Below, in pieces: positions 17,825-25,436 of a stretch of 64,000 nucleotides of DNA; position 1 is the stretch's first letter, and each line of letters opens with the position of its first letter. The stretch spans positions 682,001-746,000 of the forward strand of contig NZ_CP034539.1 of assembly GCF_003963535.1 (NCBI RefSeq). The letters are read 5' to 3'. The translations under genes were made by a program, and so were the position numbers. Source of the DNA: Streptomyces cyaneochromogenes. GTDB taxonomy: Bacteria > Actinomycetota > Actinomycetes > Streptomycetales > Streptomycetaceae. Under the pieces are notes generated by a model. That model was not told where the DNA came from and made no database searches. It saw only the letters and a list, made by a program, of their open reading frames with translations.

Positions 17825-19029
17825 GCGCGCAGGCGCTGCGCATGCCGCGCCCGGGGTTCGGGCGCGGGCATGTGCAGGCGGTGGCCGGCTGCTACTTCGT
17901 GGCCTCGTTCGCGGCCCTGGGGCTGCCGCCGTACCTGACCGAGATCCTGCCGGAGCTGGGCGACCACCAGGCCCGCTGGGCGGGGGTGCTGTACATCGTG
18001 CCGACCGTGTTCGGCGCGCTCGGCGCCCCGCTGTGGGGGCGGCTCGCCGACCGGTACGGCCGTAAACGGCTGCTGCTGCGCGCCCAGTTGGGGCTCGCGG
18101 TGTCCTTCGTGGTCGCGGGCTGGGCGGACTCGATGGCCACCTTCACGGTGGCGTTGGTGCTCCAGGGCGTCCTGGGCGGGACGTTCGCCGCGTCCAACGG
18201 CTATCTGGGCGCCGCGCTGGAGGGCCCCGCGCTGTCCAAAGCGCTCACCCTGATGCAGGGCAGCGCGCGGGCGGCGCTGGTCGTGGCGCCGATCGTGGTC
18301 GGATCCCTGTCGGGCTGGCTCTCCCCGCACCGTCAGTACGCGCTGCTCGCCGTACTGCCGCTGACGGCCGCTCTGTTGCTCGCCGCACTTCCCGAGCCGG
18401 AGCCCGTCGAGCAGCCGCAGAGCCGGCCGGAGACGGTCGACGCGGCGGCCCCGGTGGTCTCGCTGAAGGTGCTCTACGCCCTGGAGTTCGCCTTCGTCTT
18501 CTCCACGGTCATCTCCTTCCCCTACCTGATCGCGCTCGTCGACGACCGAATACCGGGGACCTCACCGGCCCTGTCCGGCGTGCTCTTCGCCCTGCCCCAC
18601 CTGGTCTATCTGGTGGCGGCACTGGCGGTGCACGCGACATTCCGGGACCGTCCGAGGGCCGGGATCGCGCTCGGCTTCGCCTGTATCGCGCTCGGCCTCG
18701 CCGGGCACGCGGTCGCCGGTTCGCCGGCCTCGCTGATCGCCGTACGACTGCTGCTGGGCGTCGGACTCACCCTCGGCCTGGTGTCCCTGTCGGTGCTGGC
18801 CGCCGACTGTGCCAAGGGCCGTGCGCCGGGGGGCATGTTCGGATCACTGGAGTTCTTCTCCAAGGCCGGCGCGGTCGCCGCCGGAGTGGCCGCGGCGGCG
18901 GGCAGTGCCCGCTTCGGACCGGCCGCGCCCGTGCTCATCGGCGGCGCCGCCGCCGCAGTCACCGTCATCGCCACGCTTCTCCTCTCCTCACTCCCCGCAC
19001 TGAACCACCGCACCCGCCGGAGCAGCTGA
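17821..19029 (+). CDS. MFS transporter, probable siderophore exporter
   Basis: This 402-residue protein has about twelve hydrophobic helices and the major-facilitator motif GRLADRYGRKRLLL between helices 2 and 3 (about residues 77-90). It is embedded between two siderophore synthetase genes with ATGA overlaps on both sides. In staphyloferrin loci the equivalent position is held by SbnD or SfaA, which secrete the finished siderophore, and that is the inferred role here. Confidence 0.9.
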   Translation: MSAQALRMPRPGFGRGHVQAVAGCYFVASFAALGLPPYLTEILPELGDHQARWAGVLYIVPTVFGALGAPLWGRLADRYGRKRLLLRAQLGLAVSFVVAGWADSMATFTVALVLQGVLGGTFAASNGYLGAALEGPALSKALTLMQGSARAALVVAPIVVGSLSGWLSPHRQYALLAVLPLTAALLLAALPEPEPVEQPQSRPETVDAAAPVVSLKVLYALEFAFVFSTVISFPYLIALVDDRIPGTSPALSGVLFALPHLVYLVAALAVHATFRDRPRAGIALGFACIALGLAGHAVAGSPASLIAVRLLLGVGLTLGLVSLSVLAADCAKGRAPGGMFGSLEFFSKAGAVAAGVAAAAGSARFGPAAPVLIGGAAAAVTVIATLLLSSLPALNHRTRRSS

Positions 19030-20837
19030 TGCCCTCCCTGACCGACTCGCTCGGCAGCGCCCCCAAGCTCTCGACCCCGCTCGAACAGCGCGGCACCCCC
19101 GCCCCCCGCACCTCTTTGCCCACCGCCGACGACGCGGTGGCCCACACCCTGCTCAACTGCCTGCTGCGCGAGGTCTCCGGCCCCGAGCACCAGACCGTGG
19201 TCACCGACGGCCACCTGCTGCTGCGCCTGCCCCGCCGCGGGGTCCTGCTGCGCGCCGCCCTGCGCCGTACCTCGCTGCTCGGGGCGCACCGGTTCACCGG
19301 CCCGGTGAGCGAACAGCGCGACGGCGACTGGACCGAGGTGGACTGGCGTCGCCTCGCCGAGTACACGCACGACGAGCTGACGCTGCGCACGGGCGTGCGC
19401 AACGATGAGTTCCTGAAGCAGATCGCCTCCAGCCACGAGGCGGTGGCGACCGCGCTGGCCGGCCCGCGAAGTCCCTCGGACGCCGCCTCCGAGGACCGGC
19501 TCTCCGCCTACCTCGCCTCGGAGCAGTCCCTGCTCTTCGGCCACCGCTTCCACCCCACACCGAAGGCCCGCACCGGCGATCCGCGCGCCTGGTCCGCGTA
19601 CGCCCCGGAGGTCGGGGCCGCCTTCCCGCTGCGGCACCTCGCCGTGCGCGCGGACCTGATCGCCGAGGAGTACGCCGACGCCACGGCCGTCGCCTCGCTG
19701 GACGGGCAGCGCACGGACGTCCCCGAGGGCTACCGGCTGCTGCCCGCCCACCCCTGGCAGTACGAGACGCTCAGCGAGCATCCGCTGCTCCGCGCGGCCC
19801 TCGACCGCGGCGACGTCCTCGACCTCGGCCCCGGCGGACGGCCCTTCGCCGCCACCGCGTCCGTCCGCACCCTGTACGACGGCGAGAGCTTCCTGAAGTT
19901 CAGCCTGAACGTGCGGATCACCAACTGCCTGCGCAAGAACAGCAGTTACGAGCTGTCGGGCGCCGTCGCCCTCACCCGCGTCCTGGCCCCGGCGCTCGCC
20001 GACCTGGCCGAGCGGTTCCCGGGCAGCGCGGTGCTGCGCGAGCCCGCCTACCGCACGCTGGCGCTCCCCGGACCGGACGGGACGCCGGACCGCGAGCTCT
20101 TCGAGGGCTTCGGCGTCATCGTCCGCGAGGGCCTGCCGCAGCGGCTCGCGCCGGGCACCACTCCCCTGCTGGCGGCCGCGGTCGCCGACGAGTACCCGAC
20201 CGGCGCCGCGCACATCTCCCGGCTCCTCGCCGGCGCCGACGAGCAGGCGGCCCTCGACTGGTGGTCGGCGTATCTCGACCTCCTCCTGCCTCCCGTCCTC
20301 GCCGCGTACTTCGACCACGGCCTGGTCCTGGAACCCCATCTGCAGAACGTCCTGATCTGCGTCGACGGCGACGGCAGGCCCGCCCAGGTCCTCTTCCGCG
20401 ACCTGGAGGGCACCAAGCTGGTCCCCGACCACCACGCGGACACGCTCGCCGGGCTGCCGCCCGAGGTCGCGGGCCCGATGACGTACGACGCGCAGCGCGG
20501 GTGGGACCGGGTCGTGTACTGCCTGCTGGTCAACCATGTCGCCGAGCTGCTCGCCGCCCTCGCCGACCTGCACCCGACGGCGGAGGCCGCGCTGTGGGCG
20601 CGGGTGCGGGCCACGCTCGATGCGTACACCGACCGGTTCGGCTGCCCGCCGCGCATGGCGGCCCTGCTCGCGGGCGTGCCCCTGCCCGCCAAGGCCAATC
20701 TGCTCACCCGCTGGGAGCGCAAGGCCGACCGCGAGGCCGGGTACGTCCGGCTGCCGTCCCCGCTCGCCGAAGCCGTCCTGGGCGGCGCGACAAGGGCCAC
20801 CACCGCCCCGCGTGACACGACCGGGGGCACCCGATGA
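19029..20837 (+). CDS. IucA/IucC-family NRPS-independent siderophore synthetase, copy B
   Basis: A 602-residue synthetase with a phosphate-binding loop near HPTPKARTGD (about residues 178-187), the canonical LPAHPWQYETL motif (about residues 237-247), KFSLNVRITNCLRKNSSYE and the C-terminal HGLVLEPHLQNVL. The canonical motifs suggest a typical citrate- or acyl-citrate-activating enzyme acting beside the more divergent copy A. It overlaps the MFS gene by one to three bases and the decarboxylase gene by an ATGA junction. The first 35 residues are poorly conserved and a later start is possible. Confidence 0.91.
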   Translation: MPSLTDSLGSAPKLSTPLEQRGTPAPRTSLPTADDAVAHTLLNCLLREVSGPEHQTVVTDGHLLLRLPRRGVLLRAALRRTSLLGAHRFTGPVSEQRDGDWTEVDWRRLAEYTHDELTLRTGVRNDEFLKQIASSHEAVATALAGPRSPSDAASEDRLSAYLASEQSLLFGHRFHPTPKARTGDPRAWSAYAPEVGAAFPLRHLAVRADLIAEEYADATAVASLDGQRTDVPEGYRLLPAHPWQYETLSEHPLLRAALDRGDVLDLGPGGRPFAATASVRTLYDGESFLKFSLNVRITNCLRKNSSYELSGAVALTRVLAPALADLAERFPGSAVLREPAYRTLALPGPDGTPDRELFEGFGVIVREGLPQRLAPGTTPLLAAAVADEYPTGAAHISRLLAGADEQAALDWWSAYLDLLLPPVLAAYFDHGLVLEPHLQNVLICVDGDGRPAQVLFRDLEGTKLVPDHHADTLAGLPPEVAGPMTYDAQRGWDRVVYCLLVNHVAELLAALADLHPTAEAALWARVRATLDAYTDRFGCPPRMAALLAGVPLPAKANLLTRWERKADREAGYVRLPSPLAEAVLGGATRATTAPRDTTGGTR

Positions 20838-22045
20838 CCGAGCCGACACCCGCGGTCCGCGACCGCGCCCTGTCCCTGCGGCCCACCGAACTGCCCGCGT
20901 ACCTCTACGACTTGGCGGCCCTGCGCGACCACGCCGCCGCCGTGCGCGACGCCCTGCCCGAGCGGGTCGAGCTGTACTACGCCGCGAAGGCCAACCCGGA
21001 GCCGGAGATCCTCGCCGCGCTCAGCCCGTACGTCGACGGGTACGAGGTCTCCTCGGGCGGCGAACTCGCCCACGTCGCCAAGGCCGTGCCCGGCCGACCG
21101 CTCGCCTTCGGCGGTCCCGGGAAGACGCCGGACGAGGTGACGGCCGCGCTGGAGGCGGGGGTCGAGCGCTTCCACGTCGAGAGCGCGTACGAGCTGCGCG
21201 TGCTGGCCGAGTTGGCACGGGCGTACGCGCCGGGTCGGCGGGTGGCGGTGCTGCCGAGGGTCAACCTGCCGGTCGCCGACGGGTCGTTGGCGGGCAGCTC
21301 GCTGGCGATGGGGGGCCGTCCGACGCCCTTCGGTACGGACCCGGCGCAGGCCGTCGAGATCGTGCGTGCGCTGACGGACGGGACGTATCCGCACCTCGAA
21401 CTGCGCGGTATCCACGCCCACTTGGCCAGCGGCCTGGAGGCGGCCGAGCAGGTCGCGGTGGCGGAGTCGATCGTGAGCTGGGCGACGGGCCTGGGTGTGC
21501 CGCTCGCCGAGGTGAACGTCGGCGGCGGCATGCACGTCGACTACGCCGACCCGGAGCGCCGCTTCGACTGGGCCGCGTACGGCAAGGGTCTGGCCCGCCT
21601 GGCCGAGGCGCACCCGGGGCTGACCCTGCGCATCGAGCCGGGCCGGGCCCTCACGGCGTACTGCGGCTGGTACGCCACCGAGGTGCTGGACGTGAAGCGG
21701 AGCCACGGCGAGGAGTTCGCCGTCGTGCGAGGCGGCACGCACCACATGCGGACCCCGGCGACGAAGGGCCACGACCAGCCCTGTTCCGTGCTGCCGGTGG
21801 ACTCCTGGCCGCACCCCTGGCCACGGCCCGCTGCGGAGGGCGAGCGGGTCACGCTGGCCGGTCAGCTGTGCACGCCGAAGGACGTGCTGGCACGCCGGGT
21901 GCCCGCGGCCGGGCTCCGGGCCGGGGACCGGGTGGTGTTCTCGCTGGCGGGCGCCTACGCGTGGAACATCTCCCACCACGACTTCCTGATGCATCCCGGG
22001 CCGGGCTTCCACTTCCTGTCGCCGCAGGACCGAAGCGCCGGGTAG
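20834..22045 (+). CDS. PLP-dependent fold III decarboxylase (SbnH/diaminopimelate-decarboxylase-like)
   Basis: This 403-residue enzyme has the alanine-racemase-like fold III signature with the PLP lysine in LYYAAKANPEPE (about residue 55), a glycine loop NVGGGMHVDY and RIEPGRALTAYCG for phosphate and substrate binding. The staphyloferrin B enzyme SbnH, which decarboxylates a citryl-diaminopropionate intermediate, belongs to this family, as do enzymes making diamines. It is last in the operon and coupled to copy B of the synthetases, so it either makes the diamine or trims an intermediate. The choice cannot be made from sequence. Confidence 0.88.
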   Translation: MTEPTPAVRDRALSLRPTELPAYLYDLAALRDHAAAVRDALPERVELYYAAKANPEPEILAALSPYVDGYEVSSGGELAHVAKAVPGRPLAFGGPGKTPDEVTAALEAGVERFHVESAYELRVLAELARAYAPGRRVAVLPRVNLPVADGSLAGSSLAMGGRPTPFGTDPAQAVEIVRALTDGTYPHLELRGIHAHLASGLEAAEQVAVAESIVSWATGLGVPLAEVNVGGGMHVDYADPERRFDWAAYGKGLARLAEAHPGLTLRIEPGRALTAYCGWYATEVLDVKRSHGEEFAVVRGGTHHMRTPATKGHDQPCSVLPVDSWPHPWPRPAAEGERVTLAGQLCTPKDVLARRVPAAGLRAGDRVVFSLAGAYAWNISHHDFLMHPGPGFHFLSPQDRSAG

Positions 22046-22128: not shown

Positions 22129-22389
22129 CTAGCGGAGGTGTCCCAGCTGCGCCGGGTTCAGGGCGTTGATGCGGTCGAGGTGCCCCAGCTGCTGGGAGAC
22201 CCGCGGGACCCGGGTCTTGTGCTGCTCGGGGATACCGGTCGTGGCGAGCGAGTCGAGCGTGCTGATCGGGTTCAGCGGTCCGCCCGCGTTCCGGGTGTCC
22301 ACGGGGTGCGCGTTCGCCAGCGGAGCGGCGAGGCCGGTGATGCCGGCGGCGAGACCAACGGCGGCTGCGATACGTCGTGTTGAGATCAT
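22129..22389 (-). CDS. Small secreted protein of unknown function
   Basis: The 86-residue protein has a clear Sec signal peptide: basic start MISTRR, a hydrophobic Ala/Gly/Leu core and a probable cleavage after ANA (residue 27). The mature 59 residues are polar, without Cys, and contain the segment NPISTLDSLATTGIPEQHK followed by VPRVSQQLGHL. Similar short exported proteins occur in many streptomycetes but I know of no function. It is divergent from the SnoaL-like gene across 170 bases. Confidence 0.72.
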   Translation of the reverse strand: MISTRRIAAAVGLAAGITGLAAPLANAHPVDTRNAGGPLNPISTLDSLATTGIPEQHKTRVPRVSQQLGHLDRINALNPAQLGHLR

Positions 22390-22559
22390 GCTTTCAGCAA
22401 CGCGGGCGGCCCGCCGCCGGACACGGCCGCCCGGCGGCGCTCACCCGTCAGGCCCAGCGCACCGGGCGCGCTTGCCGAGTCCGGCGAGGCGGAGGAGTCT
22501 CGGAGGAGAGGTCTTCGCGGCCGCCCCTCGTCCTGCCGCGGGCCTCGGAGGAGGTCACC

Positions 22560-22925
22560 ATGGGCACTGCCACAAGCCCTTCGTTCGACACCGAGACACT
22601 GCGCCGGGGCATAGAAGGACAGACCCCGGAGACACTTCTGTCGCTGTACGCGGACGACGCGGAACTGCGCGTCGTCAACCGCAACACCCAGCCCAGCCAC
22701 CCCAAGGTGCTGCACGGCCGCAACGAGATCGCGGACATGCTCCTCGACGTCTACAGCCGCGACATGACGCACAAGCTGGAGGGATGCGTCATCCAGGGGG
22801 ACCGGGCGGCCTACAGCGAGTCGTGCGAGTACGCGGACGGGGTGCGCGTCCTGTCCGAGTCCATGATCACGCTGCGCGACGGCAAGATCTCCCGGCAGAT
22901 CCTGATCGAGGCGTGGGACGAGTAG
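22560..22925 (+). CDS. SnoaL-like/NTF2-fold small protein
   Basis: This 121-residue protein matches the NTF2-like/SnoaL polyketide-cyclase fold: an N-terminal helix, ETLLSLYADDAELRVVN, KVLHGRNEIADML and a closing strand ISRQILIEAWDE. Members act as isomerases, cyclases or ligand-binding proteins. ATG 22560 follows a textbook GGAGG with a five-base spacer. The conserved pocket contains no Cys-dependent chemistry that I can identify. No biosynthetic partner is adjacent. It converges on the AlaRS-like gene. Confidence 0.82.
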   Translation: MGTATSPSFDTETLRRGIEGQTPETLLSLYADDAELRVVNRNTQPSHPKVLHGRNEIADMLLDVYSRDMTHKLEGCVIQGDRAAYSESCEYADGVRVLSESMITLRDGKISRQILIEAWDE

Positions 22926-22989: not shown

Positions 22990-24174
22990 TCAAGGGGTTC
23001 TCAGCGTCGTGACCAGGTCACGCGGCAGTCCGTGGGTGTCATGGAGGTAGCGGTAGTCCTCGTCGCTCAACGGGCCCTCGAACTGCGGCCTGCCGAGCAC
23101 CCGGCGGCCCCGCTCCAGCAGCCTGCCGAACCGCCGTTCCTCGTCCAGCAGCACCTCGCGCACCGGACCTGTTCCGCCGGGCCGGCGGAAGTGGTCCAGT
23201 GTGTGCCGCAGGACCTCCTCGGGCAGGTCGGAGAGGGTGCGCGAGGGGTCGTCGCGCCACAGGGTGGTGAGGGCACGGCGGATCAGCCTGCGCAGGACGT
23301 AGCCGCGTCCGGTGTTGGAGGGCCGTACGCCTTCGCCGATGACGACGATGCCGGACCGCAGGTGGTCACAGACGAGGCGCCTCGACGTGCCGTCCAGGTG
23401 CCACAGCGAGGGCAGGAGCCTCATCCAGGGTTCGAACAGGTCGATGTCGTAAACGGAGTTGTGGCCCTGCAGCACCGTCACGAGCCGCTCCAGTCCCATC
23501 CCGGTGTCGACACCGGGCTGTTGGAGGGTGTGGAGGCTGCCGTCCCCGAGCCGGCGGTAGCGCATGCTCACGTGGTTCCACACCTCGACCCACCTGGGGT
23601 CGCAGGTGGGGGTGCCCTGTGGTGGCGTGCCCAGATCACCGGTCCAGACGAAGATCTCGGAATCGGGGCCGCACAGGCCGACGGGACCGTGGGACCACCA
23701 GTTCTCCTCGCGGGTCGGCTCGACGGGCAGCCCCAACTCCCGCCAGGTGCGCAGCGATTCACTGTCGGGACCGACCTGGTCGTCTCCCCCGAAGACGGTG
23801 ACGTACATCCGCTCCGGCGGGATCCCGAATCCGTCGCGCAGCAGCTCGTACCCCCAACGCAGGCTCTGTGAATGGCCGTAGTCGCCCAAGGACCAGGAGC
23901 CGAGCATCTCGAACACCGTCAGATGGGTCGGGTCGCCCACCTCGTCGAGGTCGCTGGTGCGCAGACAGCGCTGGACGTTGACCAGGCGCCGTCCCTGGGG
24001 ATGCGGGCGGCCTTCCAGGTAGGGAGTGAGCGGGTGCATGCCCGAGGTGGTGAACAGCACCGGGTCGGAGGGCGGCGGCAGGAGTGTGCCGCCGGTGACC
24101 TGCTCGTGGCCCCGTTCGCGGAAGAAGTCGGTGAAGGTGCGGACGATCTGGTCGGTGGTCGGCGTGGTGTTCAT
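22990..24174 (-). CDS. Stand-alone alanyl-tRNA-synthetase-like protein lacking editing and C-Ala domains
   Basis: The 394 residues align with the N-terminal half of AlaRS only. They include a motif 1 region, motif 2 around VNVQRCLRTSDLDEVG and FEMLGSWSLGDY, and motif 3 in TGMGLERLVTVLQGHNSVYDIDLF split over residues 219-241. The tRNA-acceptor-recognition helices follow, with PSNTGRGYVLRRLIRRAL and a closing LHDTHGLPRDLVTTL, after which the protein ends. Full AlaRS is about 880-890 residues, so the editing and oligomerisation parts are absent. The catalytic motifs look intact, so it may still make Ala-AMP and charge tRNA or another acceptor. It is probably a duplicate of the housekeeping enzyme with resistance or biosynthetic use. 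Confidence 0.85.
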   Translation of the reverse strand: MNTTPTTDQIVRTFTDFFRERGHEQVTGGTLLPPPSDPVLFTTSGMHPLTPYLEGRPHPQGRRLVNVQRCLRTSDLDEVGDPTHLTVFEMLGSWSLGDYGHSQSLRWGYELLRDGFGIPPERMYVTVFGGDDQVGPDSESLRTWRELGLPVEPTREENWWSHGPVGLCGPDSEIFVWTGDLGTPPQGTPTCDPRWVEVWNHVSMRYRRLGDGSLHTLQQPGVDTGMGLERLVTVLQGHNSVYDIDLFEPWMRLLPSLWHLDGTSRRLVCDHLRSGIVVIGEGVRPSNTGRGYVLRRLIRRALTTLWRDDPSRTLSDLPEEVLRHTLDHFRRPGGTGPVREVLLDEERRFGRLLERGRRVLGRPQFEGPLSDEDYRYLHDTHGLPRDLVTTLRTP

Positions 24175-24295: not shown

Positions 24296-24364
24296 TCAGG
24301 CGTGGGCAGCCGGGGAGCTGGTCGCTCGCGCGGCTGCGGTGCGGGTGTGCCTGATGACCTTCAT
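24296..24364 (-). CDS. Possible Ala-rich leader peptide upstream of the AlaRS-like gene
   Basis: A 22-codon frame, ATG 24364 to TGA 24296, reads MKVIRHTRTAAARATSSPA then AHA; seven of its 22 codons are Ala. No ribosome binding site precedes it, but a TACCGT hexamer ends about six bases before the ATG, which would fit a leaderless transcript. A GC hairpin (24260-24284, stem CCGGCGG/CCGCCGG) follows directly, then 85 bases to the AlaRS-like start. The layout resembles amino-acid attenuators such as the Streptomyces trp leader. Alanine is a common residue in this genome, so chance is possible. Confidence 0.4.
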   Translation of the reverse strand: MKVIRHTRTAAARATSSPAAHA

Positions 24365-24486
24365 GGAATCGACGGTAACAGCCGGGGTCCGAGCCGTCGC
24401 CGGGATTTTCCGGGCCCGAGCCTCGACCGGCGTGCGCGCGCCGAGCGGCCGCGTGGTCGCGGACGGCCTCCGCTATGGTGGCCGTG

Positions 24487-24558
24487 GGCCGTGACTGGCG
24501 CTGAGGTGGAGTACCACCGGGGAGCGACCTCGCAGAGTCGATGCCGTGCGCCTGGGCG
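24487..24558 (+). promoter_or_regulatory. ZTP riboswitch (pfl motif) controlling folD
   Basis: The stretch shows the conserved core of the ZTP-sensing pfl RNA: CCGTGACTGGCGC at 24489-24501, a GGTGG/CCACC hairpin at 24505-24517, CGGGGAGCGACC, and the downstream GCGCCTGGGC at 24548-24557 that forms the pseudoknot half. A TATGGT -10 element at 24474-24479 puts the transcript start just upstream. CCTGGGC (24551-24557) is also perfectly complementary to GCCCAGG (24573-24579), which overlaps the AGGAG of folD. Ligand binding would therefore free the ribosome binding site, a translational ON switch. ZTP/ZMP accumulates when 10-formyl-folate is short, which fits control of folD. Confidence 0.9.
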
Positions 24559-24587
24559 AACCTGACACCCCAGCCCAGGAGTGGATC

Positions 24588-25436
24588 ATGACCCAGGCCC
24601 GGCTCATGGATGGCACCGCGCTCGCCCGGCGCATCGTCGAGGAGACCGCAAAGCGGGCGGCCGACCTCACCGAACGCACCGGCTCCGCACCTTGCCTTGC
24701 GACCGTACTGGTCGGAGAGGATCCCGCGTCCGTCACCTACGTCCGGATGAAGCGGAACCGGTGCCGCACGGCCGGGATCACCTCACGCCATGTGCCGCTG
24801 CCCGCGGACACCACCACCGAGCAAGTCGTCGCCACCCTGCGCGAGTTGTCGGCCGACCCCGGTGTGCACGGCATCCTGCTCCAGCACCCGATGGGCCCGC
24901 ACATCGACGAGCGGGCCGCGTTCGAGGCGATCGCGCCGCAGAAGGACGTCGACGGCGTCACCTTCGCATCCTTCGCCACGATGAGCTTCGGGCTGCCGGG
25001 GTTCGTGTCCTGCACGCCGGGCGGGATCATGCGGCTGCTCGACGAGTACGGCGTCGATCCGGCGGGCCGTCGTGCCGTGGTCGTCGGCCGCAGCGCGATC
25101 CTCGGCAAGCCGGCCGGCATGCTGCTCCTCGCACGTGACGCGACGGTGACGTACTGCCACTCCCGTACGACGGACCTCTCGGCGGCCGTCCGCGAGGCGG
25201 ACATCGTCGTCGCGGCGGTGGGGCGCCCGCGGCTGATCCGGGGGCAGGACGTCAAGCCCGGCGCCGTGGTGATCGACGCCGGGTACAGCCCCGGGAACGT
25301 CGGCGACGTCGACTTCGACTCCGCCGTCGAGCGGGCCTCGCTGATCACGCCGGTACCGGGCGGCGTCGGCCCGATGACGATCGCCACGCTGCTGGAGCAG
25401 ACCGTGGACGCCGCCGCCCGGCAGCTCGGGGTGTGA
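24588..25436 (+). CDS. folD: Bifunctional methylene-tetrahydrofolate dehydrogenase/methenyl-THF cyclohydrolase
   Basis: This 282-residue cytosolic enzyme interconverts methylene-, methenyl- and 10-formyl-tetrahydrofolate, feeding purine synthesis. Visible signatures are the SVTYVRMKRNRC segment with the catalytic Tyr/Lys pair (about residues 48-58), QHPMGPHID, PQKDVDGV and the NADP-binding GRSAILGKPAGMLL near residue 165. ATG 24588 was chosen over an upstream in-frame GTG at 24546 because that GTG lies inside the riboswitch, while AGGAG sits seven bases before 24588. It is probably translated only when the upstream ZTP riboswitch is occupied. Confidence 0.95.
   Translation: MTQARLMDGTALARRIVEETAKRAADLTERTGSAPCLATVLVGEDPASVTYVRMKRNRCRTAGITSRHVPLPADTTTEQVVATLRELSADPGVHGILLQHPMGPHIDERAAFEAIAPQKDVDGVTFASFATMSFGLPGFVSCTPGGIMRLLDEYGVDPAGRRAVVVGRSAILGKPAGMLLLARDATVTYCHSRTTDLSAAVREADIVVAAVGRPRLIRGQDVKPGAVVIDAGYSPGNVGDVDFDSAVERASLITPVPGGVGPMTIATLLEQTVDAAARQLGV

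Follow-up and report, generated by a model that had tools for sequence, protein, structure and literature searches.

A ZMP/ZTP riboswitch ahead of an accessory folD gene in Streptomyces cyaneochromogenes whose aptamer strand is complementary to the Shine-Dalgarno region

The DNA analyzed here (the window) is a stretch of 64,000 nucleotides, positions 682001-746000, of the Streptomyces cyaneochromogenes genome, which consists of one contig of 10.68 Mb. On the forward strand of the window, a folD gene is directly preceded by a riboswitch aptamer, and 23 bases separate the end of the aptamer (24564) from the folD ATG (24588). The features of the locus are given below in window coordinates, with the Shine-Dalgarno sequence abbreviated as SD.

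24474..24479 (+), likely −10 element TATGGT (TANNNT type), from conserved columns in 80 orthologues
24481..24564 (+), ZMP/ZTP riboswitch aptamer (RF01750), 54.0 bits over the full model length; also in 80/80 orthologous loci
24486..24530 (+), P1-J1/2-P2 subdomain, from the pairs of the cmscan alignment, with counts over 78 distinct orthologous sequences
24497..24500 (+), GGCG, pseudoknot strand in J1/2; partner CGCC 24549-24552, kept in 78/78 distinct sequences
24542..24558 (+), P3 stem-loop, its loop with the pseudoknot strand CGCC 24549-24552, from the cmscan alignment, with counts over 78 distinct sequences
24551..24557 (+), putative anti-SD strand CCTGGGC (pseudoknot CC, loop TG, P3 3′ strand GGC), from sequence and pairing counts
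24573..24579 (+), GCCCAGG, complement of the anti-SD strand (“invader”), from sequence and from comparison of orthologous leaders and another family
24577..24581 (+), SD AGGAG of folD, from sequence, 6 nt before ATG 24588
24588..25436 (+), accessory folD (methylene-THF dehydrogenase/cyclohydrolase family), 282 aa, PF00763 and PF02882 above cut-off
24593..24599 (+), CCCAGGC in codons 2-4, second complement of the aptamer strand (GCCTGGG 24550-24556), from equilibrium folds

A sequence-only reading of this DNA had proposed a ZTP (pfl) riboswitch in front of folD, and we ran the corresponding Rfam check. The covariance model RF01750 (ZMP-ZTP) matched 24481-24564 (+) over model positions 1-86 of 86 with a score of 54.0 bits, above the gathering score of 39 (E = 5.4e-6), and it was the only Rfam model with a gathering-level match in the 64-kb window. 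At the level of sequence, the RNA is thus confirmed as a member of the known ZMP/ZTP riboswitch class. The pfl core motifs that the earlier reading had named were all located where it had placed them: GTGACTGGCG at 24491-24500, the stem GGTGG/CCACC at 24505-24509/24514-24518, CGGGGAGCG at 24518-24526, and GCGCCTGGGC at 24548-24557. Like other members of the RF01750 class, the window has P1, J1/2, P2, P3, and the GGCG/CGCC pseudoknot, but non-standard pairs occur at the three outermost P1 positions of the model, at C24489-A24527, and at the outermost P3 position. The pseudoknot between the J1/2 GGCG and the P3-loop CGCC has 4/4 pairs in the window and in 78/78 distinct sequences, an invariance that provides no covariation evidence.

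Upstream of the aptamer, a TANNNT element lies 14-19 bases before GACTGGCG, with T in 64, A in 71, and T in 67 of the 80 orthologues at fixed positions. We infer a transcript start at ∼24486, about the first base of P1, and the outer P1 bases of the model may lie before the transcript start in the window. A sigma-70 consensus match was also found downstream of the aptamer, at 24562-24589. A search for intrinsic terminators in 24300-24750 returned 0 terminator-like sites; the intrinsic terminator overlapping P3 of a terminator-type ZTP switch was not found within this interval.

The best start of folD is ATG 24588, and a longer open reading frame opens at a GTG within the aptamer. The downstream protein carries PF00763 and PF02882, in agreement with the purine and one-carbon genes expected behind such an aptamer; PMC2864571 names folD, glyA, and purH as genes that pfl RNAs precede or accompany. 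The genome contains two RF01750 matches, the one in the window and one ahead of a glyA-type gene at 6255625, and four FolD matches, of which the other three are 43-46% identical to the window copy. The copy at 6220754 passes an NCBIfam FolD cut-off (506 bits versus 401), whereas the window FolD falls under the cut-off in all 25 NCBIfam models listed of 32 (best 363 versus 475). Because of this difference, the window folD is, as judged from protein sequence scores, a diverged, accessory copy.

The sequence-only reading had also described CCTGGGC (24551-24557) and GCCCAGG (24573-24579) as a perfect complement covering the folD ribosome binding site. We verified both the positions and the overlap: GCCCAGG covers the AGG of the SD AGGAG (24577-24581), and no more than 16 bases lie between it and the aptamer strand. 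An alternative helix between the aptamer strand and the SD region, as expected of a translational ON switch, was found in the window as a predicted structure with 7/7 pairs. The claim that the strand acting as anti-SD is the pseudoknot strand itself held in part. It is correct for CC 24551-24552; the T and G belong to the P3 loop and the GGC to the P3 3′ strand.

Is this complementarity retained in other genomes? Orthologues were picked by FolD protein similarity alone and not by RNA (the best 80 of 262); their titles indicate Streptomyces, except for one Actinobacteria bacterium. Directly upstream of folD, the aptamer core was present in 80/80 of these protein-chosen orthologues. The seven bases ending in the SD AGG, scored against the consensus strand CCTGGGC with G-U allowed, gave 7/7 pairs in 72/80 and 6/7 pairs in 8/80 orthologues; the 72 include L222, whose aptamer strand is altered and which makes six pairs when scored with its own strand. 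Orthologous sequences are related, so these counts are not independent. For background, a heuristic applied to 494 kb of this genome gave 116 starts with an AGGA-type SD, false starts included; seven pairs occurred in 6/116, one of them this folD, and six or more in 23/116. Six pairs alone are therefore weak evidence, being reached by about one background start in five.

The pattern was also found outside the window's bacterial family. We fetched 20 of the 25 matches listed there (10 folD, 9 glyA, and 1 neither), and in one other family of the order GCYCAGG was present in 10/10 folD leaders and 0/9 glyA leaders. The ten folD of this family are 73-76% identical, several of the ten being close to each other. 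Within the window's own family, RF01750 matched in 231 of 297 genomes, and 150 of the matches listed were fetched (one of them the window again). In the 152 loci examined, the next gene was folD in 64 (two being the window itself), glyA in 61, and neither in 27. Five of the 27 “neither” loci were scanned and 5/5 encode an AICARFT/IMPCHase-domain (purH-type) protein; the remaining unclassified loci are termed purH-type solely on the appearance of their N-terminal residues. In L027, L037, L044, L083, and L154, the purH-type match starts at profile position 78, and the N-terminal part of AICARFT/IMPCHase is apparently absent.

Pairing counts over the 152-locus set, from which L160, L071, L119, and L034 were omitted, differed between the target genes. 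The wider folD set (61 loci, window included) had seven pairs in 34, six in 7, fewer in 3, and no AGGA site in 17. An AGGA site was present in 34 of the 61 glyA leaders, with seven pairs in 0/34 and six pairs in 2, and in 19 of the 26 other leaders, with seven pairs in 0 and six pairs in 6. We obtained a similar picture from the predicted pairing of the SD with the aptamer nine-mer, which was 0.51 for folD (60 loci), 0.10 (47) and 0.14 (11) for two types of glyA leader, and 0.05 for purH-type leaders (26); this comparison omits L160, L071, L119, L034, L112, L137, L138, and one folD locus without a recognized SD. The glyA and purH-type leaders of the same family have the same aptamer, but the predicted partner of their SD is mostly the linker. 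In these bacteria, direct use of the aptamer strand at the SD thus looks, from the predictions, like a trait of folD leaders.

Across orthologues the aptamer strand hardly varies, as expected of a strand that forms both P3 and the pseudoknot. Compensatory double changes cannot be seen on it, and therefore no covariation proof of the SD helix is possible. Variation was found on the leader side. Two bases before the AGG, the 70 scorable of 81 leaders have T in 42, C in 28, and a purine in 0, with at least 12 changes on the folD tree (141 rows, omitting L001, L160, L071, and L119); in background starts, T occurs at this position in 9%. At position −4, an A or C breaks the outermost pair in 7/70 leaders. 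The spacer varies among orthologues while the complement stays, each of the columns −5 to −14 having all four letters. In eleven leaders the alignment anchor was an earlier AGGAG of the linker, so that n is 69 or 70 for columns −14 to −2, and the G entries at −1 and some downstream entries are artefacts. Most of the leader-side variation preserves the pair.

We then considered equilibrium folds, calculated with a program that does not handle pseudoknots and that did not predict P3 in the prefixes tried. For transcripts starting at 24486, the probability of the SD helix depended on the transcript end: 0.98 (24580), 0.76 (24590), 0.95 (24599), 0.57 (24605), and 0.04 (24620). In the fold of 24481-24620 it was 0.09, with the strand captured by codons 2-4, and when the aptamer was imposed on this RNA two SD bases were still paired, in a local hairpin. 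Across the orthologous leaders, blocking the aptamer strand in RNAs ending at the start codon raised the mean predicted SD accessibility from 0.32 to 0.53 (70 of 81 sequences; the rule used found no start codon in the dropped L171, L182, L183, L187, L193, L196, L197, L221, L223, L225, and L229). Accessibility went up in 58/70 of these RNAs and down by more than 0.05 in 7/70. When 30 nt from the start codon on were included, blocking raised it from 0.34 to 0.52 (50 up, 7 down). Over 71 folD loci, predicted pairing of the SD with the aptamer was 0.52 versus 0.17 with shuffled linkers; 49/71 reached p ≤ 0.05 and 22/71 did no better than the linker shuffles. The 28 loci without GCYCAGG had a pairing of 0.43 versus 0.18 when shuffled, with 13/28 at p ≤ 0.05. 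Among the loci that do not fit are L055, L088, L100, L109, and L117, in which the aptamer P3 TGGGC is predicted to pair with a GCCCA overlapping the ATG, which in these models would be another use of the same strand.

On the basis of these results, we consider it very probable that the leader is a ZTP/ZMP-sensing translational ON switch for the accessory folD, in which the SD region replaces the terminator invader of the studied ZTP riboswitches. The anti-SD role had been proposed from one sequence, and it is now backed by six or seven pairs in 80/80 orthologues, by GCYCAGG in 10/10 folD leaders of another family, by the lack of a terminator-like site in the interval searched, and by the predicted rise in SD accessibility in 58/70 RNAs with the aptamer strand blocked. 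Ligand binding, direction, translational level, and kinetics of the window switch are all inferred, the first three by analogy with the class. The switch might operate as follows. Transcription would start at or next to P1, so that the leader would comprise little beyond the aptamer and the SD. A shortage of 10-formyl-tetrahydrofolate would raise ZMP/ZTP, and the ligand-bound aptamer would keep P3 and the pseudoknot closed, leaving the SD free. Without ligand, the emerging GCYC would pair with GGGC (the loop G and the P3 3′ strand), after which the AGG would take CCT (the pseudoknot CC and the loop T) and the SD would be sequestered.

This order of events resembles that of better-known members of the class. 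Bases downstream of studied ZTP switches pair with the P3 3′ bases, displace the pseudoknot, and form a terminator (PMC10085676, PMC7337938, PMC7484762), the invader nucleating on the P3 3′ bases and then migrating through the pseudoknot (PMC10085676). A 2026 covariation study describes the same rearrangement across terminator-type members (PMC13273304). The window shares with the Clostridium beijerinckii pfl switch an invader that lies on the P3 3′ bases and runs into the pseudoknot strand, but the clostridial invader builds an intrinsic terminator, whereas that of the window contains the SD (PMC10085676). A wobble in the invader recurs as well, here as the T two bases before the AGG in 42/70 scorable leaders; among the wobble pairs of the clostridial invader, correcting the one nearest the nucleation site cut the ON state most (PMC10085676). 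A ZTP riboswitch is also present in a Pectobacterium reporter, a translational fusion to lacZ that is expressed only with ligand and is responsive to trimethoprim (PMC10117056); the comparison with the window covers the riboswitch class.

Could the OFF structure be formed at a different site? Codons 2-4 have seven pairs with GCCTGGG in 58/70 and six in 12/70 scored starts, and this coding complement wins the equilibrium folds of window transcripts ending at 24620 or later (24640 also). In addition, the rare codon TCT accounts for 18/35 Ser codons at codon 2 among the 62 ZTP-folD starts recognized of 81, versus 5/84 at codon 2 and 66/8799 overall in the background, whose starts are heuristic with false ones included (Fisher p = 7e-8, kinship ignored), and codon 2 has switched between TCT and other codons at least 12 times on the tree. 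These data would suit a ZTP switch on folD whose OFF state pairs the aptamer strand with codons 2-4, so that a structured loop would hold both the SD and the ATG, the SD complement being secondary. We regard such an arrangement as improbable. When 30 nt of coding sequence are included, the SD helix dominates across 70 sequences (0.68 versus 0.36 for the coding helix), codons 2-4 differ in the ten folD of the other family although the SD complement is kept there, CAGGC of the coding copy follows from the Gln-Ala codons of the protein, and the SD complement is transcribed earlier.

Control might instead be transcriptional, for example through Rho-dependent termination, and the SD complement a mere by-product. 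Those ZTP switches that have been studied best act on transcription (PMC10085676, PMC7337938, PMC7484762), and the terminator search we used cannot recognize Rho-dependent sites. However, that search gave 0 terminator-like sites in 24300-24750, and a conserved complement that runs exactly into the SD, 16 bases from the aptamer strand, argues against transcriptional control, to which we assign a very small probability. Smallest of all, in our estimate, is the chance that the aptamer is real and the pairing functionless, the complement being simply an SD with its preferred context. The ribosome requires the AGG, hence three of the seven pairs come free, and six or more pairs arise in 23/116 background starts. 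Against this, four upstream bases lie outside the SD core, yet seven pairs are made in 72/80 orthologues versus 6/116 background starts; glyA leaders share the aptamer, but 0/34 of their AGGA sites make seven pairs; and the pattern recurs in another family.

We therefore keep to a translational ON switch acting at the SD. A more speculative extension, which we think unlikely although less so than the alternatives above, is that the switch extends into the coding sequence: codons 2-4 would be a second invader copy (CYCAGG), partly kept by TCT at codon 2, and in one clade of Streptomyces the two sites would compete for one aptamer strand and thereby adjust the OFF state or lock it. The riboswitch class, the genes it controls, and its mode of strand displacement were already known; the present comparison adds support for an invader that is specific to one gene and contains the SD, and it points to a possible competitor in the coding region. 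We found no description of the Streptomyces folD platform in the literature searched, the class paper of Kim et al. 2015 being outside its scope, and no priority is claimed. The 80 orthologues and the ten loci of another family make up a large comparative case in which a ZTP P3/pseudoknot strand stays complementary to the SD region. Pairing directed at the SD would follow the same strand-displacement logic as in terminator-type ZTP switches, and the locus may be a compact setting in which to ask whether the kinetics of the invader, its recurrent wobble included, also set the response of a translational riboswitch.

Three loci of the family sample suggest that the folD behind the aptamer is dispensable, the aptamer being kept before a missing or 5′-truncated gene. 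In L034, folD was not found within ∼1 kb of the aptamer, and folD was matched only from residue 163 onward in L071 and from residue 188 onward in L119. At the break, the leader of L071 contains the string CTGGGGGCACCTCCC; L201 has a similar string at its start.

The surroundings of folD were compared over the same 80 orthologous loci, of which 46/80 exceed 12 kb, the others ending at contig ends. A divergent alanyl-tRNA-synthetase (AlaRS)-like gene was considered as part of the same unit and rejected, with a match in 1/80 orthologous folD loci. This gene, at 22990-24174 (−), encodes a stand-alone AlaRS-like protein of 394 aa that matches PF01411 positions 2-403 of 552. It sits, in the window, between the riboswitch and a gene for a SnoaL-like protein (PF12680) at 22377-22925 (+), which was the most constant neighbour tested (match in 77/80 folD loci). 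Further upstream, the interval 19029-22045 (+) holds an IucA/IucC-type siderophore synthetase beside a PLP-dependent decarboxylase, each with a match in 15/80 folD loci.
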